Source: Candidatus Gastranaerophilales bacterium
GTDB taxonomy: Bacteria > Cyanobacteriota > Vampirovibrionia > Gastranaerophilales > Gastranaerophilaceae
Length of the DNA: 64,000 nt
Direction of reading: 5' to 3'
Assembly (NCBI GenBank): GCA_944325105.1
Contig: CALUYW010000002.1
Coordinates: 1 to 64,000, forward strand
Position numbers and translations under genes: made by a program. The notes under the pieces are model-generated. The model was not told the origin of the DNA. It saw nothing but the letters and a program-made list of their open reading frames with translations, and made no database searches. This document shows positions 126 to 61,445 of the stretch, piece by piece. How positions within the stretch are numbered: the stretch's first letter is position 1; each line of letters begins with the position of its first letter.

Positions 126-830
126 CTATATTATTTCACTTAATGATAAATATCTCTCCTCAAAAGACTTTCCGTGCTTCCATATCTCCTCAACCAAGTG
201 AAGGTGAAATTTATGAGAATATGAACGACTTAATACCTTCCTATAACTCCTCAAATAAATATTTTTAATCTCTAGTCGCTCTTGTTCTTTGTGTTTTTTA
301 GCATCCTTGTTTACAAGATACTTTTCAGATACATATAATTTATGATTGTATAAGTATAAATAAACTTTAGTATTCATATACACTCTCTCTTGTGGTAATT
401 TCGGACATTTGTCAAAGTACTTTAAAAGTTCCTTGTATTGTCTATCATAAATCACAGTCCTCAAATAAGCATAAAAATTATTCATAACATGTTTTGAAAA
501 TCCAAATAAATAAATCATTTTTAAAACTTCAATATCTGTGCAAAATCCCCTGATAATATATTCTATATCTTGTTTTTTATGAAATTCAAAAAATAATGGT
601 AATTTACTTGTTTGTTGTTTTTTACAAACTTTTTTATTGTAATAATAAGTTCCATCACAATATGTTAGCCGTTCTTCATGAATTAAACCATCAATTATTG
701 GCTTAAGTTCGCTTGAATCAATCTCTGATATTGTCTCAATCTCATCCAACGAGAACTTGTTTAAACGTTTGCATAGTTTTAATATTCGCTTCTCTTGGAT
801 TATTGACGGCTCAAAATCTTTGCACTTCAT
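126..830 (-). CDS. Third gene of a Mu-like transposition module, winged-helix-like hypothetical
   Basis: This 234-aa basic protein is not one I recognise. Residues about 15-65 (KRLNKFSLDEIETISEIDSS then HEERLTYCDGTYYY) look like a helix-turn-helix followed by a beta-wing, as in winged-helix domains. The rest is rich in Lys, Tyr and Leu. Its ATG shares one base with the TAA of the upstream ATPase gene (TAATG), so the two are translationally coupled and it belongs to the transposase-ATPase operon. By position it may be an accessory target-selection or regulatory protein; that role is inference. Confidence 0.6.
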   Translation of the reverse strand: MKCKDFEPSIIQEKRILKLCKRLNKFSLDEIETISEIDSSELKPIIDGLIHEERLTYCDGTYYYNKKVCKKQQTSKLPLFFEFHKKQDIEYIIRGFCTDIEVLKMIYLFGFSKHVMNNFYAYLRTVIYDRQYKELLKYFDKCPKLPQERVYMNTKVYLYLYNHKLYVSEKYLVNKDAKKHKEQERLEIKNIYLRSYRKVLSRSYSHKFHLHLVEEIWKHGKSFEERYLSLSEII

Positions 831-1606
831 TACGATTTACCTCCGGCAAATCTCCATTCAGACAGATTTTTCACAGGGACAAGCTCGCTCGCTTCGCTCG
901 ACTCCGCTCTTGTCAAAATCCGCCTTTCATTTAATAATCCTCTCATTGTGTATTCGTCTAATTCTTCAATTTGATTTGTTATCATCAATTTTTCAATTCT
1001 ATTGATAAGTTTAACTAATTGCCTGAATTGGTTTGTACGAGTCGCAAGGTATTCAATAGCATCATCCTTGAACTTTAAATCCGTTAATTCTGTGAGAATT
1101 TCTTTAATATCATCTGAATTAAATTTTTCAAATTTCAGCTTTTTGTAAATTCGATCCATTAAATGAGGATAACGTGCAAGTTTTTTGTCTATTGCTCCCA
1201 TCCCAACAAGAACCACAGGACAACCCGTTTTATCGTGTAAATCTCTTAAGGTTTCAATAATACTTTTATCAATTAAATAATCAACCTCATCAACAATAAT
1301 TACCTTGTTATTCTGTCTTAAATTATTCTCAATTAATGTAAAAGTTTCTTGGGAATGATAAAAAGCCTCTTCTCCAAGCTCCTCTGCGATTTCAGATAAA
1401 AGCCATCTGCTTGTCATTCCTTGTGTTGCTCTTACATAAACCGAATCGTTTTTATCAGCCCACCACTGAATCGTCTGCGATTTTCCTAGCCCATGTTCTC
1501 CATAAACTAATGCCATCTTAGGAATATTAGGTGGCACTTTTTGTAATTCATCCATCAACGATACAAATTGTTTAACATTTTTTGTCCTAATAAAAGTTTT
1601 TTTCAT
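830..1606 (-). CDS. AAA ATPase, MuB/TniB/ExeA-like transposition helper
   Basis: This 258-aa P-loop ATPase has Walker A GEHGLGKS (residues 36-43) and Walker B KVIIVDEVDY (about 101-110), followed by a sensor-like VVLVGMG segment. MuB, TniB and TnsC-type ATPases bind target DNA and stimulate a DDE transposase. Context supports that role: it starts 3 bp after the transposase stop. The C-terminal 30 residues or so (LTRAESSEASEL onward) are encoded by a GC-rich purine/pyrimidine-biased palindromic stretch (878-914) unlike the AT-rich remainder, so the original C-terminus may have been altered by a small insertion. Confidence 0.85.
   Translation of the reverse strand: MKKTFIRTKNVKQFVSLMDELQKVPPNIPKMALVYGEHGLGKSQTIQWWADKNDSVYVRATQGMTSRWLLSEIAEELGEEAFYHSQETFTLIENNLRQNNKVIIVDEVDYLIDKSIIETLRDLHDKTGCPVVLVGMGAIDKKLARYPHLMDRIYKKLKFEKFNSDDIKEILTELTDLKFKDDAIEYLATRTNQFRQLVKLINRIEKLMITNQIEELDEYTMRGLLNERRILTRAESSEASELVPVKNLSEWRFAGGKS
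878..914. repeat. GC-rich palindrome-ended insert inside the ATPase gene
   Basis: Thirty-seven bases begin with GACAAG and end with CTTGTC, around a core of reiterated CGCT/GCTCG units. The segment is far more GC-rich than its surroundings, stays in frame, and encodes low-complexity residues such as RAESSEASEL. It may be a small mobile palindrome similar in idea to in-gene palindromic elements of other bacteria. That comparison is inference. Confidence 0.45.
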
Positions 1607-1609
1607 AAT

Positions 1610-3601
1610 TTAATCTCCATATAAATTGTAGTATTCATCACTTCGAATGTAGTTTGTAAGCCATTTTCTATCTTCAGGATTAGTGCATCCATTTGTCATT
1701 AACCACTCGTATTTTTCATAATCTGTATTAAAAATAGGTCTATACATCTGAAGTTCACGAGGGCTTAATTTTCTTTCCCGTTTTGGTTTTTCAATTATTT
1801 GTTGCTCAGCCATAATCCTTTCTTGCGGTTCAATCTCAATAACTTCAGCCTGTTCTTTAGGGAAGTATTTCAAGAATTCTTTTTGAGCTTTTTTAAATTG
1901 TCTTTGTTGCTTTTGAATTTGTTGCTTAAATTGTTCCATATCTTTTACTGTGCCTAAATGATTTGCCATTGGGTGAACTTTTTCAACTTGTCTTGCGATA
2001 CATAAAAATTCACCTTTAGTTGAATAAACATGTATTTTAGTTAAATCAAATAGACTGTATCTAATGTAAACAGAATCTCTTAAACCTAAAATTGAATCAC
2101 TCCTGTAATGAAGTCCAAGGAATGTTATTCCGTGCTTATTAATAGTTCTAACTTCAGTTTTCATCATTAAATCATTTAAGATATTTTTATCGATTTGATG
2201 GCGTTGAACACTGTTTAAACATTGTTTAATTGATATTTGAGGAGCGTTCGGACAAGGTTTTGAATTGTGAAAATCTAGGTAACAATCAATGTATTTTATT
2301 AATTCTTGTACAGTTGGGATGTAATTATTAGTGAGTTTTTTATGCATCTCTCTATGAAGTTTCTCTCCTCGTTTCATCCACGCAGGCTTGTTTTCAATAC
2401 TTGTTCCAATGTAGCTTGGCATCATTTTTTCAAATTCTTCTTGAAATTCTCTAAAGAACCTCTCTATTACTTTTGCTCTTGCATTGTATGGTTTTGCAAA
2501 TACTGATTTTATTCCGAGATTGGCATATACTCCATTAAACCCTTCTTCATCAAAATCACAAGATTGAAAATATTTTGCTTTAAATGCCCTACCGTTATCT
2601 TGGTAAACTACCTTCGGAATCATACCTAAATTAATGATTGCATTTCTTAATGCCGAAGCTATACATTGAGTGTTTTCGCTCATCATAATTTCATATCCAA
2701 CCAGTGCTGTTGATTTCCAATCTAAAAAGCCGACCAAAGTTGCTCTGGTCGGCTTTCCTGTAAAAGGGTTAATTACTTGAAAGTTTAAAGTATGCCCATC
2801 AGCAATAAGTACATCTCCAACTTCCAATTTTGAAATATCCCTTTCAATATATGCTTCCACTTTATCGTGGTATGCTTTTTCACCTTCTCTAAATAAAACC
2901 CATTGTGCAAAATTATGTTTTTTATAATGTTCTGCGTATCTTCTAAAAGTTAAATCACAAGGAATATTCTCGTATCCTCTTTTTTCTAAAATATGCTTCG
3001 TAAGATTTATTGCTTTTCCAATACTAAATTTATTAGGATGCATAAGATATTTGAAAAATACTTCCTTCATTTCGTTATTTAATATTGAATTATATTCTCC
3101 TTGTTTTCTAACTTTATAACCCGGCAATAGAGATTTATAACTACTATTTTCTTTATATAGATGTAGCCATTGATAAAGTGTTGTCTTACTTATTGAACCT
3201 ATAAAATTATATACTTTAGGAAGTAACATTCCTGAATTATATAAATCCAAGAATACTGAATCAGCCTCTTTTTTAGTTGAATATTTACCACGAATATTTA
3301 ACAAGGCGTGTAAAATATCAACTCTTGCTAAGGCTGTCATTTTTGCCTTTTCAGAAATAAAAGTTGGTTCTTGGTTTAAAATTGGAACAAGAGATGTTCC
3401 TCTGATTTCTTCATCTTCAAGTTTTTCTTGAACTTCTGCCTCTAAACTTGAATAAAGTATTTCATAGGATTTACCACCTCTAACCTCAACTTCTCTTGCG
3501 ATATATTTACCTTTTTGTATTGCAAGTCTGATTGAACGGTTACTATTTAACCCTTTTATCTTTGCTACTTCATTTATATTTATGTATTTTTCCATACTCA
3601 C
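1610..3601 (-). CDS. Mu/Tn552-like DDE transposase
   Basis: This 663-aa transposase catalyses strand transfer of the mobile element. The N-terminus (residues 5-50, ININEVAKIKGL, SNRSIRLAIQKGKYI) resembles the MuA winged-helix DNA-binding domain. The integrase-fold core has a DDE triad at D268 (IADGH), D335 (VYQDNGRAF) and E380 (KVIERFF). A basic Gln/Lys-rich C-terminal segment follows (about residues 570-640), where Mu-type transposases contact their ATPase. Length is normal for the family and no frameshift is seen, so it could be active. It leads a three-gene minus-strand operon, and the region upstream holds repeated motifs likely to be its binding sites. Confidence 0.9.
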   Translation of the reverse strand: MSMEKYININEVAKIKGLNSNRSIRLAIQKGKYIAREVEVRGGKSYEILYSSLEAEVQEKLEDEEIRGTSLVPILNQEPTFISEKAKMTALARVDILHALLNIRGKYSTKKEADSVFLDLYNSGMLLPKVYNFIGSISKTTLYQWLHLYKENSSYKSLLPGYKVRKQGEYNSILNNEMKEVFFKYLMHPNKFSIGKAINLTKHILEKRGYENIPCDLTFRRYAEHYKKHNFAQWVLFREGEKAYHDKVEAYIERDISKLEVGDVLIADGHTLNFQVINPFTGKPTRATLVGFLDWKSTALVGYEIMMSENTQCIASALRNAIINLGMIPKVVYQDNGRAFKAKYFQSCDFDEEGFNGVYANLGIKSVFAKPYNARAKVIERFFREFQEEFEKMMPSYIGTSIENKPAWMKRGEKLHREMHKKLTNNYIPTVQELIKYIDCYLDFHNSKPCPNAPQISIKQCLNSVQRHQIDKNILNDLMMKTEVRTINKHGITFLGLHYRSDSILGLRDSVYIRYSLFDLTKIHVYSTKGEFLCIARQVEKVHPMANHLGTVKDMEQFKQQIQKQQRQFKKAQKEFLKYFPKEQAEVIEIEPQERIMAEQQIIEKPKRERKLSPRELQMYRPIFNTDYEKYEWLMTNGCTNPEDRKWLTNYIRSDEYYNLYGD

Positions 3602-4247
3602 ACAATAACTCGGAAGTTTGGAAATGGAACACCGTTTCCGACTTATTGTGTCGCTTTCGTATCAATTATAATTATTGTTTTTTATGAATAATAAATATAT
3701 TTATCTACTCTCTGAAGAAAAAAACAAATAACAAATAAAATTTACTTATGAAAAATATGAGATTCCGAGTTTCTTTAAAAAACTTCCAACTTATATAATT
3801 TAAATTTTATTAAATTTTATTAAACTTTGTTTAATTTTTATTTAAAAAGTTCCTCTTAAATTTCAACAAATTTTCAACACTGTCCTGTCCCAAAAATCCT
3901 GAACTGTCCCAAAATTCCTGAACTGTGCCTAAATTCCCGCCATTTAAGGTTTTGAGACACTGTCCTGTTTTAGACATTGACGGACAGTAATCGGACTTTT
4001 TTGACAGTTCAGGAATCTTATTTTTAGCAAATTCCGACTAAAAAAATCAAGATATATTTGAAACACAGCCCCATTGGTTCAAAAAAATCAAATTCCGACA
4101 ATGTCTGTTCAATGGCACCCTCGCAGAGCGGGCTGTCCAAAATAATCAAAGTATCCGTACAAATAAAACCGGTCGTTAAATTACAGTTTGGATGTTTATA
4201 TAAGGACTAAAAACTGGAAGCTTCTAAGTTTGAAACTTCCAGTGAAA
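3602..4247. other. Non-coding transposon end with repeated motifs
   Basis: No credible gene lies here. The stretch is AT-rich and contains an array of short repeats. CCTGAACTGT occurs at 3898 and 3917 and inverted at 4004-4013. ACACTGTCCTGT occurs at 3877 and 3957. AAATTCCGAC occurs at 4029 and 4090, with related TTCCGACTTA near 3636. Arrays like this are typical of transposase-binding end sequences of Mu and Tn7-type elements. The exact terminal dinucleotides cannot be placed from this window because the opposite end is not visible. Confidence 0.55.
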
Positions 4248-4326
<79 letters not shown>

Positions 4327-4329
4327 ATT

Positions 4330-4358
4330 AAATTATCATATCGAGCGAACACGCTCAA
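4330..4358 (-). promoter_or_regulatory. Promoter of tRNA-fMet, lying in element DNA
   Basis: Reading the minus strand, TTGAGC (4358-4353), a 17-bp spacer, and TAATTT (4335-4330) lie immediately before the tRNA 5' end. The expected start point is about at the mature 5' base. An inverted repeat GAGCG-n4-CGCTC (4343-4356) overlaps the -35 side. The sequence lies outside the shared 41-bp repeat on the element side. Confidence 0.55.
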
Positions 4359-4739
4359 CAATTATATTATCAAATGCTGAATATGAAAAATCAACCCCAT
4401 GATTTTTTATTTAAAAATTCATATTCCCTACAATTATTATCAGGGAAATTGTAAGTACAGCGGATTCAGATGTTTTTAAGGATACCTGCGGCGGTGAAAA
4501 TAAACCTACGGCAGCAAATAAAATCTGTATTTAACTATAAATATAATATTAAGTATTCTATAAATACCAATAACGCTTATTATATCAAGCATGGAAGTAA
4601 ATCTAAAAAGACCCTTATGAGCCGACAAGCTACCATGTAATCTTAAATGCAATAAATAAATAAATAATAATTAAAATTTCAAAGATAATCTTATCAATAT
4701 GATATTATTATCATGTTTACAAATATGAAAAGGAGTTTT
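4359..4739. other. Non-coding left end of the element
   Basis: No gene is seen. The stretch contains the degraded copy of the element's right end (4548-4635) and, just before the OLD gene, an AT-rich run with several possible -10 boxes. In-frame ATGs at 4713 and 4725 precede the chosen start of the nuclease gene but lack a ribosome-binding site. Confidence 0.5.
4548..4635. repeat. Degraded copy of the element's right end plus tRNA fragment
   Basis: This matches 11584-11672 with only about eight differences. It runs from ATTAAGTATTCTATAAATAC through AAGTAAATCTAAAA into TTATGAGCC-GACAAGCTACC, a worn piece of the same tRNA half. It looks like the right end of an earlier related element left behind when a second copy integrated, or the product of an internal deletion between tandem copies. 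Confidence 0.7.
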
Positions 4740-6665
4740 ATGACATTAGCATTAAGTGAAATAAAAATTTTAAACTACAAATCTATAAACGATGTTACTT
4801 TAAACATAAAAAAACAAGATGATAGCTATACAACGGTTTTTGTTGGGAAAAATGAAACTGGAAAATCTAATTTACTTGATGCTATTGCATTTATTTCTCG
4901 ACCTGAAAAAGAATTTAGCTATGAAGAATTAAAAAATTCACAAAATGATGCCGCTAGTTATGTTGACTTTTATTTCGTTTTCAAATTTCTTAATGAAGAA
5001 GATTGGAAATCAGTCTTAAAAACAAAAATCAAAGCACCAAGTGAAATTATTGAAAAAATCAGCATTCAAGGTTACGAAAATAATACTTATCTTCATAAAG
5101 ACAAAAATAAGTTTGTAGGAGCAAATAACATACAGTTTAGCTGCCCAAAAGATGAAGAACTAAAAAAATATGCTTTTAAAAAATCTTCAAAGACGAATGA
5201 TAGTGAAGAAGAATGTGAGTATGAGTATGAAATTTTATATTCAAGAGGTCTTGGAACTCAAAATGCCGATGAAAATGTAGAAAGTTCAACAGCATATAAA
5301 ATATTAACAGAAGATAATTTGCAAGAAATATTAAACCATATATTTAAAGAAACAATTGAAGAAAATAAATTACATGTTTCAAAATGGAAGTATTCTAAAG
5401 AATATTTAATTACTGAAACAATTGATTTGAATACATTTAAAACTGATAATAATATATGTTATCCTTTGAAAAATATATTTAATTTAGCTGGCTATAAAAC
5501 CCCCAAAGAGATTGAAACAAAAATCAACACTTTAATAAACAGTCCTAAAAGTATTAACAAGTTGGCAAGTCAATTAGAAAATAAAACTACTGAATATATA
5601 AATAAAATCTGGGCAGAATGTAAAATCAAAGTCAAAATTGATATTCAAAAAGACTTGCATTTAGATGTTTATATTGCTGATGAAACTGACGATGAAAATA
5701 CTTACTATATGTCTGATAGAAGTGAAGGTTTTAAACAATTTGTATCCCTAATTTTAAGTATATCAGCAGCCAATGAAACTGATAAATTAAAAAATAATAT
5801 TATTTTGATAGACGAACCAGAAGTTCATATGCACCCTTCTGGTATTAGATTTATGCGTAATGAATTATTGCGTATTGGCGAAAATAACTATGTCTTTTTA
5901 GCTACGCACTCACAATTTATGATTGATACGAAAAATAGGGAAAGGCACTACATAGTAACAAAACCAAACAATAACACATGTGTAAAATTATGGGATTCTA
6001 CAAAAGATTTAGCTGATGATGAAATTTTAAGACAAGCTTTTGGGATAAATGTTTTAAATGATTTGTTAGCAAAAAATAGAATACTTGTTGAGGGGTATTC
6101 TGATTGTATTTTATTAGAAAATGCTATTAGTATATTGGCACCTAATAACTGTATAACTATAACTAACGGAACAGGCTCAAATATTGTTCCAGTTGCAAGC
6201 ATGCTAAAAATGTATAATGTTTCAGTTTTAACAATTGTAGATGCTGATAAAGATGGTGAAAAATATAAAAAGGAAATTTTAAAATTAGGAAATCCTTTTG
6301 AAGAAAAATCAGTTAAAACAATAAGAGATTTAGATACTGAAGTTATTGATTATGGAACAATCGAAGATACATTAGATATAGCTTATGTTACTAAATACTT
6401 AAAAAAAGCATATTCTGATATTACTGGTACAACAACTTGTAATTATACTTATTCTAATGAAAAACCTATAATAGAAGATTTTAAAATTTATATGTTACAA
6501 GAAAATATTGCAAAAAGTACAAGTTGCGAAGTTATAGAAAATGCAAAAATTTTAATTGCTCAAAACTTTAAACCAACATCGAGTTCATTAAGAAATAAAC
6601 ACGCTAAACTATTTAATATTTGTAATAAAATTTTAGAATATTTTAAACCTAAAATTGATGAATAA
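4740..6665 (+). CDS. OLD-family ATPase/TOPRIM endonuclease
   Basis: This 641-aa protein joins an ABC-type ATPase to a TOPRIM nuclease. It has Walker A GKNETGKS (residues about 36-43), a long insert, a late ATPase block with Walker B ILIDEPEVHMHP and the switch histidine in ATHSQFMID, then a TOPRIM domain with the glutamate in ILVEGYSD (about 449-456) and the acidic pair in VDADKDGE (about 500). I start it at ATG 4740 because AAAGGAG precedes it; ATG 4713 is in frame but has no such site. OLD proteins act in phage exclusion, alone or as the Gabija GajA, PARIS or retron-linked subunit. No UvrD-type partner is adjacent, so this is closest to a stand-alone class 1 OLD. Defence function is inference from family and from its place on a mobile element. 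Confidence 0.88.
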   Translation: MTLALSEIKILNYKSINDVTLNIKKQDDSYTTVFVGKNETGKSNLLDAIAFISRPEKEFSYEELKNSQNDAASYVDFYFVFKFLNEEDWKSVLKTKIKAPSEIIEKISIQGYENNTYLHKDKNKFVGANNIQFSCPKDEELKKYAFKKSSKTNDSEEECEYEYEILYSRGLGTQNADENVESSTAYKILTEDNLQEILNHIFKETIEENKLHVSKWKYSKEYLITETIDLNTFKTDNNICYPLKNIFNLAGYKTPKEIETKINTLINSPKSINKLASQLENKTTEYINKIWAECKIKVKIDIQKDLHLDVYIADETDDENTYYMSDRSEGFKQFVSLILSISAANETDKLKNNIILIDEPEVHMHPSGIRFMRNELLRIGENNYVFLATHSQFMIDTKNRERHYIVTKPNNNTCVKLWDSTKDLADDEILRQAFGINVLNDLLAKNRILVEGYSDCILLENAISILAPNNCITITNGTGSNIVPVASMLKMYNVSVLTIVDADKDGEKYKKEILKLGNPFEEKSVKTIRDLDTEVIDYGTIEDTLDIAYVTKYLKKAYSDITGTTTCNYTYSNEKPIIEDFKIYMLQENIAKSTSCEVIENAKILIAQNFKPTSSSLRNKHAKLFNICNKILEYFKPKIDE

Positions 6666-6925
6666 AATTTATTACCACCCCATACAGCCCCTCTCATTGC
6701 GTGATAAGCTTTCTTGGTCGAAGAAACAAGTTTTCCCGTTCTGAGATTGCTTGGTTGCTCGCGATGAACGGCATTGCGGTCTTGCTCATCGCAAGCCCTC
6801 AGCCTCCGCTCGCAATCCGCTTTTCTCGGCTTGAAAAACCCCGCCTTGATAAATTCAGATGAGAGCATTCTCGGGCGAATGATGAAATGTTTTACGGCGG
6901 TGAGGTATAAAGTTACCCTCAAAAA
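6666..6925. repeat. GC-rich palindromic intergenic segment
   Basis: It lies between two convergent genes and is far more GC-rich than both. It contains nested inverted repeats: GATTGC at 6745 with GCAATC at 6812, and inside them GCGATGA at 6761 with TCATCGC at 6786. A long open frame on the minus strand here is best seen as a by-product of the palindrome. It could act as a bidirectional transcription stop or be a dispersed repeat. Confidence 0.45.
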
Positions 6926-7249
6926 TTAAAGTAATGATTTTAGCAAAGTATCAACGACTACAAGTTTTGCCCTATCTGATTTTATAGTTTCTAAATTTTT
7001 TAAAATATTTTTATGCAGTTCATCATTCGTTTTTATTCCGCCAAATGAAAATAACTCATCAGGCTCTAAATTTAATTTTTCTAAAATCTTTTCCAATGTT
7101 TCAGCGGTTAGAAAACCGTTGCCTGTTTCAATAATACTTAGCGCATTAGTCGATAAACCCAACATTTCCGCAAATTTAATTTGTGAAAAACCTCGTTCCT
7201 TGCGTATTTGGCTAATTTTAGCCCCTAGTAATTTTTTTATATTTGTCAT
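6926..7249 (-). CDS. XRE-family transcriptional regulator
   Basis: This 107-aa protein has a lambda-repressor-type helix-turn-helix at residues about 9-62 (ISQIRKERGFSQIKFAEMLG, then STNALSIIETG) and a helical tail of about 40 residues that probably dimerises. AAGGAAAGG precedes its ATG. It is divergent from the glycosylase operon with 101 bp between the start codons, so it is the likely repressor of that operon and of itself. It is not close in length to phage CI; it resembles small regulators of defence and toxin-antitoxin loci. Confidence 0.88.
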   Translation of the reverse strand: MTNIKKLLGAKISQIRKERGFSQIKFAEMLGLSTNALSIIETGNGFLTAETLEKILEKLNLEPDELFSFGGIKTNDELHKNILKNLETIKSDRAKLVVVDTLLKSLL

Positions 7250-7309
7250 AGATTACCTTTCCTTACATGTTAATTGGCATATCCACGCAAAAGAACAAAA
7301 CTAAACTGG

Positions 7310-7338
7310 TTGACATAATAAGTTTAATTTGATATTGT
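7310..7338 (+). promoter_or_regulatory. Promoter of the HhH-GPD operon
   Basis: A perfect TTGACA (7310-7315), a 17-bp spacer, and TATTGT (7333-7338). The expected start point is only about 6 nt before ATG 7351, so the message would be nearly leaderless. It lies in the XRE/HhH intergenic region, where the regulator is expected to bind. Confidence 0.65.
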
Positions 7339-7350
7339 TTGAATGGAAGA

Positions 7351-8109
7351 ATGGAAAAAGATTATAAGGAAATGTTCAATATTCTTGACGGCTACTTAAA
7401 AGATAAAGTGCCCGATATTGACCTAACTATTATAGAAGCAGTTAATAACCGTAAAAACGGCAAAATCTTTACTTTTAAAGAACATTTAAAAGGTTTTATT
7501 TACGCTCAATTAAGCGCATTGGTTTCTTGGAAAAAGATTAAAGACAATCAAACAAAGTTTGATGAACTGTTTTGTAATTTTGAGCGCAACGCATTAAAAG
7601 AACAATCCGCAGATTTTTTAATTGAAGAAATTAAAAAACTCAAATGTTATAGCCCCTATACTACAAAAAATCAAATGCAGTCATTAAAAGCAAATATTGA
7701 AACTTTTGAGAAAATCGAGCAGGATTTTGGAAGCCTTGAAAAATTTGTAACCCACACAACGCCTATAAACATTATCAAATTACTTAGCCATTATAATAGC
7801 ACCTACAAATTAAGGTATTCAGGCGTTGCTCTTGTGTGTGAGTATCTTAGAAATGTTGGTATTGATGTAATTAAACCCGATGTACATATAAAAAGAATTT
7901 TAGGGGCGGAAAGATTAAACATTGTAAAAAGTAAATCTGATTATGCAATTATAAGAGAATGCAAAAAACTTTCTGATAAAATCGGAATCAGTCAAGTAAA
8001 AATGGATTATTTATTGTGGAATTACTGCTCAAAAGGTTATGGCGAAGTTTGCACTGCAAAACCAAAATGCGCAAAGTGCGTTATTAAAGAATATTGTAAT
8101 AAAGGGTAA
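7351..8109 (+). CDS. HhH-GPD DNA glycosylase-like protein with iron-sulphur motif
   Basis: This 252-aa protein has the endonuclease III/MutY fold signature. The helix-hairpin-helix region is LRYSGVALVCEYLRNVGIDV, followed by the catalytic-aspartate motif KPDVHIKRIL. The C-terminus carries four cysteines, C-x5-C-x2-C-x5-C (CTAKPKC, AKC, VIKEYC), close to the 4Fe-4S loop of EndoIII (C-x6-C-x2-C-x5-C). The lysine of bifunctional EndoIII (LPGVGRK) is absent, so a monofunctional glycosylase or altered chemistry is likely. Start is ATG 7351; an in-frame TTG at 7339 would lie at the transcription start. Its stop abuts the next gene. The N-terminal 90 residues or so match no house-keeping relative I know. 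On a mobile element a role against modified phage DNA is possible but unproven. Confidence 0.75.
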   Translation: MEKDYKEMFNILDGYLKDKVPDIDLTIIEAVNNRKNGKIFTFKEHLKGFIYAQLSALVSWKKIKDNQTKFDELFCNFERNALKEQSADFLIEEIKKLKCYSPYTTKNQMQSLKANIETFEKIEQDFGSLEKFVTHTTPINIIKLLSHYNSTYKLRYSGVALVCEYLRNVGIDVIKPDVHIKRILGAERLNIVKSKSDYAIIRECKKLSDKIGISQVKMDYLLWNYCSKGYGEVCTAKPKCAKCVIKEYCNKG

Positions 8110-8394
8110 ATGTTGATTATAGAAGAAATTGAAAAATTTACTGAATCAATGCCGCTAGGTTATGAGTTTTCAACAAAGTGGTTTAAAACAGAATTAAGCA
8201 AGCAATATAATAGGTCTGCTGAAAGCTACATACCTTCTGATTACTGTTATAACAGGAAAAACAAAGGCATAAATTACAATAAACAACCTCACTATTTTTT
8301 GCATTTAGGGCGAGGTAAATATAAGTATGTTGGCAAAGATTATATTTTTACAGGTGAAGTTGAAGAAAAGCCAAGAATAAAAAAGGGCTTGTAA
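8110..8394 (+). CDS. Small conserved-looking protein with SDYCYNR motif, unknown function
   Basis: A 94-aa protein whose ATG follows directly after the stop of the HhH-GPD gene, so the pair is translationally coupled. The middle reads SYIPSDYCYNRKNKG and the end HLGRGKYKYVGKDYIFTGEV, which suggests a compact alpha/beta domain. I recall similar stretches as a small domain attached to or beside nucleases, but cannot name the family with confidence. The tight coupling suggests it works with the glycosylase. Confidence 0.65.
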   Translation: MLIIEEIEKFTESMPLGYEFSTKWFKTELSKQYNRSAESYIPSDYCYNRKNKGINYNKQPHYFLHLGRGKYKYVGKDYIFTGEVEEKPRIKKGL

Positions 8395-8438
8395 ACATTT
8401 CTCATTGTGCATAAATAAAAAATAAAGGAATTATTTAG

Positions 8439-8699
8439 TTGCAAATAGTATATGTAATACTTATCGGATTAATATTAGCAGAGATTATTAAGTTGTTAGA
8501 GCCAACGGGTATTTTGTTTGTATGGATATTTCAACATATCTCAAGCATAATTGTTGCAGCGATAATGTTTATAGTCTTATTTGCGCTTGCAATAGTAACT
8601 ATAAATTATTTCAAGTATAAAGATGAAACGGAAAAAGAACGAGCAGAAAGATTAAAGCGACAAGAAATGTTGGATAAGTGGCGCAAGCAGTTTAAATAA
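8439..8699 (+). CDS. Small membrane protein
   Basis: An 86-aa protein with two hydrophobic stretches (residues about 3-17 and 24-55) and a highly charged C-terminal tail (KDETEKERAERLKRQEML) predicted to be cytoplasmic. It starts with TTG 8439, preceded by AAAGGAA 8 nt upstream; no in-frame ATG fits. It is probably in the operon of the two genes before it (44-bp gap). Many defence cassettes end with a small membrane effector; that role here is only a suggestion. Confidence 0.55.
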   Translation: MQIVYVILIGLILAEIIKLLEPTGILFVWIFQHISSIIVAAIMFIVLFALAIVTINYFKYKDETEKERAERLKRQEMLDKWRKQFK

Positions 8700-9582
8700 A
8701 AAAACAACCGGCGGGGAAGAAAAATAAAAATAGAACAAATGTTGTTATAAAATTCCTACATATAGAAGCATAAGAAGTAGTAAGCTATAAAATCCTTATA
8801 TGATAATATCGAAAAGTATGCTATAAGTATTTTTTAGTAGTATAAAATATTCAATTTTAACCTCAATTAAATAGAGAGTCTGGTCGAGGCAAGCAAAAAT
8901 TTTTGTGCATTTTACACATCTTCATAATTTATCAAAAATAAAAAGTCAATAATAATGGCTATTTTAGACCTGCTAAAAAATTTATTGTATAACAAAATTC
9001 AAGTATAATAAGCGTTTACAGAGATTTATATTTGACACATTACAAAAAGTCGTATACCATGAAAACATACAATTAATAGGTAGTGACGATTCACCTTTAT
9101 TTCTCGTCCCCAGCGTGAGCCTCCGCTATGGTTATAATATCTAGGCTCAAAGGTAGAGATTATAAGTTAAAAAAGGAGAAAACCGCACCGCAAAGACATA
9201 AGTATTAGATAAGCGAAGGAGCATTATCATGAAAACACTTATGTTATTATTACAAACGCCCGCTAGTAAGGATACTGGCAAAAAATGTAACAACTGTATA
9301 AGACTGGTGCACTTTATGCGCTTGTTACAAACAAAATCAAATAGAGATAAAAAACAGGAGGAACACTACCTAAGAGAAAATTCAGCGATTTACAAATTAC
9401 CGGTCAACTTGATAAAACTTGATAAAGTAATGTCAAGCGATAGGGTATACTCTAATTACGCACTCTCGTGGCATTTAAAAAGCCTTTGTTTAGGGTTGGT
9501 TTTTGCTTTTTCACTCAATTCAGTGATTAAGTCTTTACATCTAACAATCGTTATCCTAAAACAAAACAAAAAGGGGGAAACG
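8700..9582 (+). other. Long leader region before the recombinases
   Basis: The first 330 bp are AT-rich with no gene seen. A clean promoter follows (9032-9060). From 9080 to 9170 comes a GC-richer piece where GAGCCTCCGC is followed by GGCTCAAAGG, a possible stem-loop or attenuator. From ATG 9229 (preceded by GAAGGAG) a frame of 118 codons runs without stop into the serine recombinase gene. Its product has no recognisable domain, and the region may also hold recombination sites for that enzyme. Confidence 0.4.
9032..9060 (+). promoter_or_regulatory. Sigma70-type promoter upstream of the recombinase genes
   Basis: TTGACA (9032-9037), 17-bp spacer, TACCAT (9055-9060). It is the only strong promoter-like match between the membrane protein and the recombinases and would give a transcript with a leader of about 160 nt before ATG 9229. 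Confidence 0.5.
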
Positions 9583-10260
9583 ATGACAGGACAGAGCGTT
9601 GCGTACATTAGAGTAAGTGCCGTTGACCAAAATTTGGAAAGCCAAAAAGAACTATTACAAAAATGCGCCATCAACAAATGGTTTGAAGAAAAAATCAGCG
9701 GTAAGAACACAGACCGTCCACAATTACAGGCTATGTTAGAGTATGTTAGAGAGGGTGACACAGTATATATTAAAGACCTTTCAAGACTTGCTCGCAACAC
9801 AAAAGATTTGTTAAACATTGTGGAATATCTTGCCAATAAAGGCGTTGCTCTAAAAAGTATCAAAGAAAATATTGATACTTCAAGCAATTTTGGCAAATTA
9901 ATGATTACATTCCTCGCTGCCATTTACGAATTTGAGCGTGCAAATCTTTTAGAAAGACAAAAGGACGGTATTGCAGTTGCTAAAAAGTTAGGCAAGTACA
10001 AGGGGCGAAAGAAAGTTCCAAAGCCTGATAACTTTAAAGAGGTTTATCAAAAATGGCTAAAACGTGAAATTAAATCAATAGCAGCAATTCGCGAGTTGAA
10101 TATTAGCGAATACGCATTCTACAAGTTCGTTAAGGAAAGCGGCAGCCGATGTGGAGTTGGCGGAAACGGTCAGTTTTCGACAACGCAACTGTACGATGGC
10201 GACATAGGAACGCAGGCTCTGCCGAGTACCACAGGAGCAGAGGAGAATGCAAATGGCTAA
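9583..10260 (+). CDS. Small serine recombinase (resolvase/invertase type)
   Basis: This 225-aa enzyme has the catalytic serine in YIRVSAVDQ (Ser12), the conserved DLSRLARN block, the FERANLLERQKDGIA helix and a C-terminal helix-turn-helix (AIRELNISEYAFYKFVKES). It resolves or inverts DNA at paired sites. I choose ATG 9583 because AAGGGGGAAACG precedes it and the protein then begins at the family's usual point; the frame is open upstream to ATG 9229. The last 40 residues or so (from GSRCGVGG) are not family-like and overlap the integrase start by 14 bp, suggesting an extended C-terminus created when the two genes were joined. Confidence 0.9.
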   Translation: MTGQSVAYIRVSAVDQNLESQKELLQKCAINKWFEEKISGKNTDRPQLQAMLEYVREGDTVYIKDLSRLARNTKDLLNIVEYLANKGVALKSIKENIDTSSNFGKLMITFLAAIYEFERANLLERQKDGIAVAKKLGKYKGRKKVPKPDNFKEVYQKWLKREIKSIAAIRELNISEYAFYKFVKESGSRCGVGGNGQFSTTQLYDGDIGTQALPSTTGAEENANG

Positions 10261-11515
10261 AAGAAGACGTAACGGCGAAGGCTGTTTTCAGAAAAGCACT
10301 TGCGGCAGATATATTGAATATCGAGTTACATATTATGATGAACTTGGTAAAAGAAAGCTAAAAACATTCTCTCGCAAGACAAAAGAAGAATGTTTGCAAG
10401 CGTACAAAGAATGGAAAGCAGAGCAAGAGGGTAAATGTCCTGATGAGATAAGCGAAAATATTACAGTTGCACAATGGGCAAATACTTGGTTTGAAAATTA
10501 TGTTGTAAATCATGTAAAAGAAACTACCGTTAACGACGATAGAAGCATTTTAGATAGGCACATTATTCCTGATTTAGGACATTTATTACTAAAAAAGCTA
10601 ACTCCTCACTTATTAACAAAATTTTATAACGCTTGCTTAAAAAAGAGTAACGGCAAAGGCGGAACACTTGACCCCAAAACTGTGAAAAATATTAGAGCAG
10701 TAATGAATAGAATGCTCAAATGTGCTTGCATAATTGGTATTTTAAAAGATAACCCGAACACCCTAGCTCTTTATCCAAAATGTACCAAGAAAGAAACCGA
10801 AATTTTAAATTCGGAAGATTATGACAAACTCATAAAACATTGTATTGACCAAGCTACTCAATGGGATATGTTAATCATTTTTCTCTTATGTGTAGGCGCA
10901 AGATTAGGTGAGGCACTAGGATTGCAATGGTCAAAGGTTAATTTTGAAAAGCAAACTATTAGAATTAACCAGCAAATGCAATCAGTACCAAACAAAGATA
11001 AGAACTCAAAATACAAATACACAAAGAAGATTATAGATTCCACAAAGACAAAAAGCTCTAACAGAACTTTGCCAATGTCAAGTGATATTGAACATATACT
11101 ACGCTATGTCAGAAAGTTGCAAGCTATAAACAAAATGGCGCAAGGAGCAAAATATCATAGAGATTTAGACCTCGTGTTTGCACGTGAGGACGGATATTTT
11201 ATTTGCGATACTACTTTTAGAGCTTTTGTTAATAAACGGTTAGCAGAGGCAGGAATCGAACATCATAAAATACATTCATTTCGCCATTCTTGCGCTACAA
11301 GTTTCTTTGAACAAAAAGCTGATATCAAGAAAGTGTCAAAGTGGCTCGGACACAGTTGTATTGGAATTACTTTAGATACTTATACGCACGTTCAACCTCA
11401 ACATCTGGAAGAACTTGCAGAGTTGCAAAATAACAGATTTAAAAAAATCTTCAACAGTAACGAAAAAGATATTCCAGATGAAATGCTACCAAATAAAGAC
11501 GATTGGGGTGCATAA
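10247..11515 (+). CDS. Tyrosine integrase of the element
   Basis: This 422-aa phage/Tn916-type integrase has an N-terminal AP2-like arm-binding domain (residues 1-60, KRRRNGEGCFQKS then TFSRKTKEECLQAY), a SAM-like core-binding domain (70-170) and a catalytic domain with R219 (GARLGE), K269, H343-x2-R346 (HSFRHS), H369 (WLGHS) and nucleophile Y379 (LDTYTHV). All catalytic residues are present, so it may be active. It may also start at ATG 10253. It lies 68 bp before the right-end repeat and 135 bp before the attachment core, the classic position for an integrase next to its att site. Confidence 0.95.
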   Translation: MQMAKRRRNGEGCFQKSTCGRYIEYRVTYYDELGKRKLKTFSRKTKEECLQAYKEWKAEQEGKCPDEISENITVAQWANTWFENYVVNHVKETTVNDDRSILDRHIIPDLGHLLLKKLTPHLLTKFYNACLKKSNGKGGTLDPKTVKNIRAVMNRMLKCACIIGILKDNPNTLALYPKCTKKETEILNSEDYDKLIKHCIDQATQWDMLIIFLLCVGARLGEALGLQWSKVNFEKQTIRINQQMQSVPNKDKNSKYKYTKKIIDSTKTKSSNRTLPMSSDIEHILRYVRKLQAINKMAQGAKYHRDLDLVFAREDGYFICDTTFRAFVNKRLAEAGIEHHKIHSFRHSCATSFFEQKADIKKVSKWLGHSCIGITLDTYTHVQPQHLEELAELQNNRFKKIFNSNEKDIPDEMLPNKDDWGA

Positions 11516-12623: not shown

Positions 12624-12725
12624 ATTATTTTTCAAATTCAAAAGTAAAATTTAAGCCTTAATTTTCCTTAATTTTTGCCAAATTTCATTAAACTTTTTTA
12701 TCCACTTTATGTTAAAATACAGCTT

Positions 12726-25045: not shown

Positions 25046-25100
25046 AAATTTATTATAGATTAAAATGAAACAAGAGGCATTTTTGTAATATAATCTTACT

Positions 25101-26822
25101 ATGAGTGAAAATTATTTGCCGCTTTTTAGAAAATATCGTCCTCAGTCTTTTAAAGACTTAGTAGGGCAGGAAAACTTGGTTAAAGCCTTAACTAACGCTA
25201 TTGAACTTAACCGCATAGCCCATGCATATCTTTTCTGCGGCCCGAGAGGCACAGGAAAAACTTCAAGTGCAAGGATTTTTGCAAAATCACTCAACTGTGT
25301 GGAGGGTCCGACTGTTGAGCCCTGCCAAAAGTGCGCAAGCTGTGTAGATATAACAAACGCTACGGGTATGGATGTTATAGAAATTGACGCCGCTACAAAC
25401 AGAGGTGTTGAAGGGGCGGAGGATTTAATCGCTCAGGTTCACTACGCACCTGTCAGCGGCAAGTATAAAATCTTTATCATAGATGAAGTTCATATGCTCA
25501 CTGCAACGGCGTTTAACGCTCTTTTAAAAACATTTGAAGAGCCGCCTGAAAATGTAATTTTCATCCTTGCAACAACAGAGCCTCACAAAGTTCTTGAAAC
25601 AATTGTAAGCCGCTGCCAGAGATTTGACTTTAGAAGAATAACCGTTGATGACATCACAAAAAGATTAAGAGAAATTTCTGACATAGAAAACATTAAAATA
25701 ACAGATGACGCTCTTTTTTGCATTGCAAAAAATGTATCGGGCGGTTTGAGGGATTCTCTTGCACTTTTAGACCAGGTAAGTATTTTAGGTGCAAAAGAAG
25801 AAATAACAAAAGATACAATTGAAGAGCTTTTAGGCAAAGTCACATTTGACAGATTGATGAAATTGCTTGATTTAATTATCGAAGGCGATATTGAAAAATC
25901 TCTTGAGCTTATTGATGATATTTACCTTAAAGGCTCTGAACCTCGCAACTTGTGCGAAAACTTTATGGAATTTTTAAGGAATATAATTATCACTCTAAGC
26001 GCCAAAGAGCCTCAAAATGTCACTAAATTCAGCGCTTTAACAAAAGAAGACATTCAAACAATTGTTGCTAAAAACTACGATAAAAACCTAGTTAGCGATG
26101 TTTTAAACACGGCTATTGAATATTTTAAAGAAGTTAAATTTGCAACCAACCCCTACTTATGGGTAGAGCTTATGGTAATTGAGGCTGCAAGAATTAAAAA
26201 CGCACCTAAAAAAGTTGAAATTCAGCCTGAAATAAAAGTGCAAAAACAAGAAGTAAAAACAGTTGTACAACCTCAAGAACCTAAAAAAGAAGTTATACAA
26301 GAGCCTAAAGAAATTGTACAAGGACAGCCCCAAGAAACTAAAGAGCAAGTACAAATACAAGCACAGAGCGGCTCGGAGCTTGATATTTGGAGCGCTATAG
26401 TAAATTCAATAGAGAGCGTCCCTGCTAAATTTTTCTATTCGGGAATGGCAAAACTTGTTGAGATAGATGACAACAGAATTATTCTCGGTTTTATTAATCA
26501 AAATGTTATAACTCAGGCAAAATCAGAACTAAAACACAAAGCTTTAATTGATGGAGAAAAAAGAGCCTTCGGCGGCAAATATATATTTGAGTTTGTTCAA
26601 CTTGGAGGAGATATTAAACCTCTTGAAGGCGCTGTGGTTAAACCTGTTGTTAAGCCGCAGGTAAAACCTCAAATACAAAAAGAAGAAAAACCTGTTGAAC
26701 ATAGTACACAGGAAGACAGTGAACCTGTTGAGCAAAAAGCGCAAAGCAAAGTAAATATGTCAACTTACAGCCCGAAAGTTCAAGAGATGCTTGAAGCTTT
26801 CAGCGGTAAAATTATTGATTAA
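25101..26822 (+). CDS. dnaX: DNA polymerase III gamma/tau subunit
   Basis: A 573-aa clamp-loader subunit. It has Walker A GPRGTGKTS (residues 47-55), four zinc cysteines (NCVEG, PCQKCASC), Walker B FIIDEVHML and the SRC arginine finger (IVSRCQRFDFR). Domain III follows, then a Pro/Glu/Gln-rich low-complexity linker (about 370-425) and a tau-like C-terminal domain. TATAAT ends 6 nt before the ATG, implying a leaderless message; it is divergent from ldcA with 55 bp between starts. Confidence 0.95.
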   Translation: MSENYLPLFRKYRPQSFKDLVGQENLVKALTNAIELNRIAHAYLFCGPRGTGKTSSARIFAKSLNCVEGPTVEPCQKCASCVDITNATGMDVIEIDAATNRGVEGAEDLIAQVHYAPVSGKYKIFIIDEVHMLTATAFNALLKTFEEPPENVIFILATTEPHKVLETIVSRCQRFDFRRITVDDITKRLREISDIENIKITDDALFCIAKNVSGGLRDSLALLDQVSILGAKEEITKDTIEELLGKVTFDRLMKLLDLIIEGDIEKSLELIDDIYLKGSEPRNLCENFMEFLRNIIITLSAKEPQNVTKFSALTKEDIQTIVAKNYDKNLVSDVLNTAIEYFKEVKFATNPYLWVELMVIEAARIKNAPKKVEIQPEIKVQKQEVKTVVQPQEPKKEVIQEPKEIVQGQPQETKEQVQIQAQSGSELDIWSAIVNSIESVPAKFFYSGMAKLVEIDDNRIILGFINQNVITQAKSELKHKALIDGEKRAFGGKYIFEFVQLGGDIKPLEGAVVKPVVKPQVKPQIQKEEKPVEHSTQEDSEPVEQKAQSKVNMSTYSPKVQEMLEAFSGKIID

Positions 26823-26867
26823 GTGTAACAAATTGACTAAATATTTATTTTTTATACAATAGGTTAT

Positions 26868-29573: not shown

Positions 29574-29605
29574 AAATGAATTATAACCTTTCTTGCATCC
29601 TGTTA

Positions 29606-29968: not shown

Positions 29969-30087
29969 AAAGCCATTTTAGCACAATATTTGTTTAATAT
30001 TTCTTAACAATAGGCTAAAACATGTAAATTGTCACAAAAAATATAACTTTATTTAAGTATAGGAAGTTTATACAGGAAGATAATGCT

Positions 30088-33191: not shown

Positions 33192-33312
33192 ACAAATAAC
33201 TTAGCACAAAAATGCACCCTCTTTTAAAAATCTTTATATCTTTATGTATATGCACAAAAGGTAAAATTCGCTATAATACAAAACGTAAAACATACTAAAA
33301 GGAGCAACAACA

Positions 33313-41527: not shown

Positions 41528-41528
<1 letters not shown>
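40395..41528 (-). CDS. deoB: Phosphopentomutase
   Basis: A 377-aa alkaline-phosphatase-fold enzyme that interconverts ribose-1- and ribose-5-phosphate. It has the metal aspartate IVIDSMGIGAIEDA, the phospho-acceptor threonine region KDTTTGHWEIAG and the C-terminal metal motif TADHGCDPTFRGTDHTRE. Its ATG overlaps the stop of the upstream decarboxylase gene by one base. Confidence 0.94.
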
Positions 41529-45636
<4,108 letters not shown>

Positions 45637-49300: not shown

Positions 49301-49515
49301 CCGCTGTTGAGGACCAAGCAACAGACAGAGCTTATCGTATCGGCCAGACAAAGAAAGTTTTTGTATACCGCTTAATTACAAAAGGCACGGTAGAAGAAAA
49401 AATCCAAAGACTCAAGTCCAAAAAACGCTCGCTTGTGGATAGTGTTATTTCAATTGACAGAAACATTGCAAAAACACTTACATATCAGGATATCAAAGAT
49501 ATCTTCAGTGTTTAG
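46348..49515 (+). CDS. SNF2/HepA-family helicase with SWIM zinc finger
   Basis: This 1055-aa protein starts at GTG 46348. It has an N-terminal SWIM zinc finger (SCSCPLDEPWCKH, residues about 68-80), a bacterial SNF2-associated region, then a SWI2/SNF2 ATPase: motif I DDMGLGKTLQTL, motif II LDESQN (for DEAH), SGTPIENRLEELW, and motif VI QATDRAYRIGQTKKV. It translocates on double-stranded DNA. Bacterial members are mostly uncharacterised, and some lie in defence loci, but nothing nearby makes this a defence system. Confidence 0.93.
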   Translation: MKYIFNNKYLKDNSKPGSWRRGYEYFQKGQVEEISLKDTTVKGKIKGNYKSYYETSIKFNKTSAKPSCSCPLDEPWCKHAVALGLTALKNHLWDEFLYEKHDITPVFEDEDLPMCENPQGGYIFHFNPKRRQNFFSILVMDRNTKRVIRDLEGIFKAVLEAQKNDPDFQLNNAQKLEAMMFKMLLKQSRLDKKSGWYDVQINKFDEFFKMLSKMEDVIDAKTHKKIRFDNEIWKLCLAVNISYVGNVLLSLYWERPDGSEVYPFEEIRYFSRQLKWGRYKDVIFQTDAQVSILPQYLTKASFTDIKDAEGGKFIYEELPKLRKMMSVYLSEEMEKLAFEKRPPKCIVELSIDYDLSLKASLDFEYDGVRVPYSKTPKSPYVTVKQPEKDLLYWVKRDTQFEERAYQMLLACRFAPMQTNNLALEKEYAIDFYNYYINKAGEGWEFIEKDDMSLYKLNNKGFELKATIDFIEESTDKFEIELHGEVDGETIEFEKIQDLVYEGAKYYNTKGKGQAAIPADDILSLLKSFNTYDVYKNEEDKFIVKTYRAGVVSEMESMGVKLKMSRKFSKFWKEISTFSNMENTPLPKSTVATLREYQTKGYSWLWFLYKYGLNGILADDMGLGKTLQTLTLLQKAKEKDGKEPTLVICPTSVVFNWENEIEKFAPNLKFLVLSGVERKTQFKNIPKYDIVITSYALVRRDIEQLKKHEFRYVILDESQNIKNATSQTSKAVKELNAKHKLALSGTPIENRLEELWSIFDFLMPGFLFDANEFNYRYVNPIVEKGDKAVERRLKGQIFPFILRRMKRDVAKDLPDKIESVAYCELTPEQKDLYLQVLDSTKEELFKSIETVGLEKSRMSIFSALLRLRQICCHPRLYDKEGTLGINESGKFEHLQEMLEEIISEGHRILLFSQFVGMLDIIKQWLETKGIKHEYLSGATKNRQEVVERFNTDPTIPIFLVSLKAGGTGLNLTGADYVIHYDPWWNPAVEDQATDRAYRIGQTKKVFVYRLITKGTVEEKIQRLKSKKRSLVDSVISIDRNIAKTLTYQDIKDIFSV

Positions 49516-49687
49516 CAAGCTTTGCCATTACACTTAAAATTTCATTTTGTGCAGCGTTTAATATGTTATGTTCGCAAGATTCATCGTTGGTCTGCATAAT
49601 AACATTAAGTGAATTTTGAAGCTGCGAAAGACACTGAGAAGCAGTGTTGAGTTTTTCAAGAATAATAAATTGTTCGTCTTTATTCAT
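49505..49687 (-). CDS. Small helical protein divergent from an AbrB-type gene
   Basis: A 60-aa protein (KDEQFIILEKLNTASQCLSQ, NILNAAQNEILSVMAKLAK), probably a helical hairpin. I start it at ATG 49687, since TATAAT ends exactly 6 nt before it; a longer frame upstream would run through the promoter. It overlaps the end of the SNF2 gene by 11 bp in convergent order. Function unknown. Confidence 0.6.
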   Translation of the reverse strand: MNKDEQFIILEKLNTASQCLSQLQNSLNVIMQTNDESCEHNILNAAQNEILSVMAKLAKH

Positions 49688-49761
49688 GCTTATATTATAT
49701 ACATAAAATAAACATAATGCAATAACTTTATAATGATAATATAATTTGATATCATTTCTAT

Positions 49762-49926
49762 ATGATAAAAAAATTGCGCTTAACAGGGACAAGTTACTCA
49801 CTAACCATTACAAAAACAATGCTTGAAATACTTGGCATAGACCCAAAAAAGGACTTTGTCGAACTTCGTTTTGAGGGTGAAAAATTAATAGTAACAAAAG
49901 TAAAAAACACTCAGGAAAAAACCTAG
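49762..49926 (+). CDS. AbrB/MazE/SpoVT-type DNA-binding protein
   Basis: A 54-aa protein with the swapped-hairpin beta fold pattern: KLRLTGTSYSLTITKTMLEI, then LGIDPKKDFVELRFEGEKLI, then VTK. These are transition-state regulators or antitoxins. TATCAT ends 6 nt before the ATG. It is divergent from the 60-aa gene (74 bp between starts) and convergent with dnaE. No toxin gene follows, so an antitoxin role would have to involve the 60-aa protein. Confidence 0.75.
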   Translation: MIKKLRLTGTSYSLTITKTMLEILGIDPKKDFVELRFEGEKLIVTKVKNTQEKT

Positions 49927-53402: not shown

Positions 53403-53443
53403 ATTAACAATTTAGCACAAAAAGTGTCATGAAAAGTCAAATG

Positions 53444-55192: not shown

Positions 55193-55264
55193 AGCTTAAA
55201 TATATCACAAAAAAGATTGACCGAAGTATTTTTTAAAGCTAAACTAAAGACAAATCCATTCTAA

Positions 55265-56275
<1,011 letters not shown>

Positions 56276-56611: not shown

Positions 56612-56750
56612 AAAAATATTCTACAACAATTTTAAATGCTTTGTCTAACAGTGCATTGTAATTTACATTTTTTAATATAAAAAGCGCAAAAAATATTTTT
56701 CAGGTATGTTAAATAGGTAGTGTTGTTAGTTGTATGAAAATGAGGATATT

Positions 56751-61369: not shown

Positions 61370-61445
61370 TATTTTTACCTCCAAAATACTTCAATTTTCT
61401 TAACTATTATAATACAAACATTGAATTTTATACTATAATATTAAC

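Follow-up and report, generated by a model that had tools for sequence, protein, structure and literature searches.

In Zheng 2011 (PMC3160421), TA-led genes carry a TANNNT motif whose first T lies ~12 bp before the start codon and which is interpreted as the Pribnow box of a leaderless transcript. Leaderless genes were found there in Actinobacteria (about 20% of genes), Deinococcus-Thermus (40%) and other groups; Cyanobacteria were absent from these groups, and many of their genomes use neither SD-led nor leaderless signals. PMC9581028 summarises GeneMarkS-2 predictions of leaderless transcription in 21.6% of bacterial species, reaching up to 40% of transcripts. Among photosynthetic cyanobacteria, 51 leaderless mRNAs are recorded in Synechocystis 6803 (PMC9938897) and 19 in Synechococcus UTEX 2973 (PMC6091082), and at the cvkR/cas12k locus of Anabaena two leaderless genes are set apart by a short spacer (PMC9938897). 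Nakagawa 2017 (PMC5397173) mentions reported leaderless mRNAs in Cyanobacteria together with AT-rich upstream biases, which were deemed ambiguous. The leaderless class is known from other phyla; for the Gastranaerophilales lineage we found no earlier report, our search for leaderless genes in Melainabacteria, Gastranaerophilales and Vampirovibrio having returned none from a literature that mostly excluded subscription papers.

The window analyzed here runs from base 1 to base 64000 on contig 2 in a Gastranaerophilales genome of 1.76 Mb, with genes named via Pfam/NCBIfam. A sequence-only reading had listed eleven genes with a -10 box 6 nt before the ATG and four with a spacing of 7 nt. All of the former (11/11) were confirmed on the window sequence; of the latter, lptC, nrtR and ligA held up, but the Orn/Lys/Arg decarboxylase has TATAAA, leaving TAnnnT at exactly 6 or 7 nt from the ATG in 14/15 named genes. 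At dnaX, the start region reads ttgtaaTATAATcttactATG, in which the box is followed by cttact and then by the ATG. The boxes, together with the SD site of ilvC as a leadered contrast, are as follows:

12713-12718, plus strand: lptC, -10 box TAAAAT, 7 nt to the ATG (12726)
25052-25057, minus strand: ldcA (Peptidase_S66), -10 box TATAAT, 6 nt to the ATG (25045)
25089-25094, plus strand: dnaX, -10 box TATAAT, 6 nt to the ATG (25101)
26855-26860, plus strand: nrtR, -10 box TACAAT, 7 nt to the ATG (26868)
29580-29585, minus strand: histidine kinase (HisKA/HATPase), -10 box TATAAT, 6 nt to the ATG (29573)
29975-29980, minus strand: mrnC-like RNase III-domain gene, -10 box TAAAAT preceded by TGTGC, 6 nt to the ATG (29968)
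33198-33203, minus strand: MFS exporter, -10 box TAAGTT preceded by TGTGC, 6 nt to the ATG (33191)
42864-42869, minus strand: Orn/Lys/Arg decarboxylase (gene 41528-42856; Pfam OKR_DC_1), TATAAA, 7 nt to the ATG (42856), not matching TAnnnT
42871-42876, plus strand: ligA, -10 box TAAAAT, 7 nt to the ATG (42884)
49694-49699, minus strand: 60-aa ORF, -10 box TATAAT, 6 nt to the ATG (49687)
49750-49755, plus strand: 54-aa ORF, -10 box TATCAT, 6 nt to the ATG (49762)
53409-53414, minus strand: dnaE, -10 box TAAATT preceded by TGTGC, 6 nt to the ATG (53402)
55199-55204, minus strand: DUF815 ATPase, -10 box TATATT preceded by TGTGA, 6 nt to the ATG (55192)
55264-55269, plus strand: ilvC, SD site AGGAGG, start at 55277
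56618-56623, minus strand: fliN-like gene, -10 box TAGAAT, 6 nt to the ATG (56611)
61434-61439, plus strand: tyrA, -10 box TATAAT, 6 nt to the ATG (61446)

Two labels from that reading fared less well: 'operon-leading' is uncertain for the kinase, which lies on the same strand only 32 nt after mrnC, and the 54-aa gene called 'AbrB-type' has no Pfam match. The 60-aa ORF has no match in Pfam or NCBIfam; it and the 54-aa ORF (49505-49926) are divergent, with 74 nt between them and a leaderless-type promoter predicted at each. The left part of the window (830-11515) holds a TniB-like ATPase, a Mu-type transposase gene, an OLD-family AAA/TOPRIM gene, a resolvase and a phage-type integrase, and the clustering of such transposase/resolvase/integrase-type genes suggests mobile elements.

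Box distances were counted from gene starts set by a simple self-trained caller blind to any upstream signal, over 864 kb (49% of the genome, taken as stretches), and they peaked at 6 nt. Among 256 divergent first genes, TATAAT stood 6 nt from the start in 17 and 7 nt in 6, against 1.24 expected per position (p=2e-14 at 6 nt); with one mismatch allowed, the counts were 33 and 15 against 5.7 (p=1e-15 at 6 nt), and the excess by counting amounts to 14% of these genes. In the same sample, the peak was weak in genes that follow another on the same strand across 60 nt or more, and small in operon-internal genes; the sharp 6/7-nt peak lies essentially at first genes. Within the window, a near-consensus box at 6/7 nt was present in 12 of 40 first-type genes, compared with 1.2 in resampled sequence, where 1000 rounds gave 6 at most, and with 1.4 when other spacings were used, and the loose TAnnnT in 18 vs. 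3.8 expected. The whole genome contains 81 occurrences of TATAAT-N6-ATG vs. 41 expected from spacings 9-20, and a second genus (G001) also peaked in a gene-anchored sample (p=5e-6). Loose TAnnnT counted over every genomic ATG gave no clear peak; the signal emerges when the box is near-consensus or when counting is tied to gene starts. No spacing peak was seen in the genome scan for GTG or TTG starts. As with the TA-led genes of Zheng 2011, the first T of the peak class falls at -12.

When spacing was left free, expectation-maximization (EM) recovered TGnTATAAT, with a weight at 6/7 nt of 0.197 in divergent first genes and 0.143 in all first genes, and the distances fell into two groups, one sharply peaked at 6/7 nt and one spread broadly over 19-38 nt, with few boxes at 8-18 nt. 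In three runs on shuffled sequence the weight at 6/7 nt was 0.002-0.091, and other spacings reached as much as 0.133, so EM by itself is no proof. The sparse 8-18 nt zone is what would be expected of two classes, leaderless and leader-plus-SD.

We then considered 58 genes picked by the hexamer alone, using 358 other first genes for comparison. The claim that boxed genes lack an SD site is true (0/58 vs. 153/358, or 43%, by a strict SD 4-mer, which occurs in 54% of operon-internal genes), but this absence is partly forced, since a -10 box at -12 to -7 fills the SD position; 16S rRNA, sought for its anti-SD tail, was not found in the assembly. Other features lie outside the selection. A pyrimidine occupies -1 in 50/58 boxed genes (86%) vs. 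209/358 (58%; p=3e-5), and G occurs there in none of the 58. Ahead of the box, TGn is found in 20/58 (34%) vs. 6.9% for the same hexamers genome-wide (p=9e-10), and TRTGn in 11/58 (19%) vs. 0.8% (p=1e-12), while a -35-like element is weakly enriched (at most 2 mismatches in 23/58 vs. 26/174). Every boxed gene starts with ATG (58/58 vs. 328/358, p=0.013), which, with the missing SD, again resembles the TA-led genes. The share of the class also depends on the divergent gap, being 26/74 (35%) below 100 nt and 11/128 (9%) above 150 nt. Composition alone would not predict the -1 bias, the TGn/TRTGn extension, the -35-like element, the exclusive use of ATG or the gap dependence, and these give independent support to the promoter reading: by its TRTGn extension, -1 pyrimidine, weak -35 and gap dependence, the box behaves as a promoter element would.

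Orthologues of dnaX, dnaE, ligA and ilvC were compared at up to 33 loci, nearly all in the same family. The closest relatives of dnaX, 56-57% identical over the full length, come from a Candidatus Gastranaerophilales MAG and from the bin of an uncultured bacterium, which places the organism among the non-photosynthetic Cyanobacteriota. The leaderless-type layout of dnaX recurs at 16/33 loci, with ATG in 16/16, and 6 loci are SD-type, with TTG in 5/6 (start-codon contrast p=2e-4, at loci that are not fully independent, since they come from related genera and two of them share an identical upstream region). Five dnaX loci of the family, from several genera (L137, L142, L144, L150 and L153), place TATAAT 9 nt from the ATG, always with atc before it, predicting a 3-nt leader, AUC-AUG. 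For dnaE, 14/30 family loci are leaderless-type and 6 SD-type, so that both genes switch among relatives between the leaderless-type layout and a leader with SD. The ligA layout is leaderless-type at 5/14 loci where the gene is first in its unit and 0/14 where it follows another ORF, indicating that layout follows the need for a promoter. By comparison, ilvC has an SD in 18/24 family loci and the leaderless-type layout in none; many of its relatives (L285-L301) have a TGTGCTAAAAT-like box roughly 20-40 nt upstream with the SD in between, so that here the promoter element serves genes with a leader. At the level of sequence it is established where the putative promoters sit and which codons open the genes.

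The explanation that we consider very probable is that a minority of units are genuinely transcribed without a leader, from promoters of the sigma70 type whose -10 box is often extended. A sigma70-type promoter, often TRTGnTATAAT, would drive a defined minority of Gastranaerophilales transcription units; its normal start point, 7 nt past the -10 box, would fall on the A of the ATG, giving an mRNA that begins 5'-AUG, or one base earlier with 7-nt spacing. Initiation would then proceed by direct recognition of the AUG with initiator tRNA and no Shine-Dalgarno pairing, and in other units the same element, 19-38 nt upstream, would serve a leader with SD. We infer transcription starting at the ATG, and with it leaderless translation, from this geometry.

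An unlikely competitor keeps the promoters and starts transcription 1-5 nt before the AUG, on near-leaderless mRNAs with a leader too short for an SD. The 7-nt class, which predicts a 1-nt leader, and the five dnaX loci with atcATG both speak for it; however, the peak is sharpest at 6 nt, where T at -1 and A at +1 form the expected initiator pair, and few boxes occur at 8-18 nt. It is much less likely that these are leadered mRNAs lacking an SD, read from leaders that are long, rich in A+T and free of structure, a mode put forward for many genes of cyanobacteria, with the boxes a product of AT-rich composition. Although first-gene upstream regions are ~75% A+T (in a genome with 36% G+C in the first 464 kb sample) and many other genes lack a strict SD, composition cannot yield a peak at a single spacing, nor can it account for the -1 bias, for TRTG or for the way the class depends on the divergent gap. 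The divergent starts of dnaX and ldcA, 55 nt apart, and those of ligA and its neighbor, with a 27-nt gap (42857-42883) in which the two promoters would overlap, also leave scant space for leaders. Least probable of all are wrong start codons, with boxes inside leaders and the true starts at downstream codons: starts were called from the letters only and start errors are common, but in most family loci the alignment of dnaX orthologues begins with residue 1, on one and the same codon (offset 0), and the 6/7 peak survives a wider start search.

Leaderless initiation had been proposed as a main mode in this organism. The leaderless reading itself is well supported by features outside the gene selection, but the word 'main' is not: the leaderless type is a minority mode, accounting for ~14-20% of first genes (about one in six) and roughly 7-10% of all genes, and far from outnumbering the SD type, it is less common than SD, which is present in 43-54% of the others. 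As in Deinococcus and Actinobacteria, a -10 box abuts the ATG in a sizeable set of genes beside leadered SD genes; unlike in those groups, where the share is 20-40% of genes, the set is smaller here, and its box is near-consensus and often TRTGn-extended.

To place the signal in the phylum, we took counts of TATAAT-N6-ATG from 146 genomes of the order and from 117 of the phylum, and expressed them as a ratio to the mean of spacings 9-20, a spacing control that replaced a reversed-pattern control for the order-wide counts and was judged fairer. The excess in the genome's own family is solid: its 48 genomes pool to a ratio of 1.93 and span 1.34-2.67. Pooled ratios were 0.74-1.43 in the order's remaining families and 1.27 in another family of the class (f8). 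PsaA-bearing cyanobacteria as a group had no excess of TATAAT-N6-ATG (48 genomes, pooled ratio 0.88 vs. 1.93); leaderless mRNAs, with starts mapped at the start codon, are rare in photosynthetic cyanobacteria. Five deep families lacking PsaA (f9, f11, f15, f18 and f19) reached ratios of 2.1-6.8 on small counts, and two others (f22 and f25) had no excess. Of 30 TATAAT-N6-ATG sites sampled in deep lineages, 20 stand at the start of an ORF of 80 codons or more, an uncontrolled count. Gene-anchored samples were too small or had no clear peak in three deep genomes (G154, G174 and G152), one from another order of the class (G193), one from f7 (G007) and one PsaA-bearing genome (G182). It is thus a tentative and rather doubtful proposal that leaderless initiation on a substantial scale dates far back in the non-photosynthetic Cyanobacteriota (Gastranaerophilaceae plus several deep lineages) and was reduced to rarity in photosynthetic Cyanobacteriia, the phylum thereby being divided by its mode of initiation.

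The Gastranaerophilales are gut bacteria known almost only via metagenomes. On the present reading they have a real and conserved leaderless class, seemingly driven by extended -10 promoters, in which the RNA start and the mode of translation would follow from promoter position. If many genes are indeed leaderless, start-codon prediction in Gastranaerophilales should use the -10 box, promoters would be readable directly from genomes, and drugs that leave leaderless translation unaffected might act on these bacteria differently. The dnaX, dnaE and ligA orthologues, which switch layouts among related genera, offer a natural set for testing the interconversion of initiation modes.
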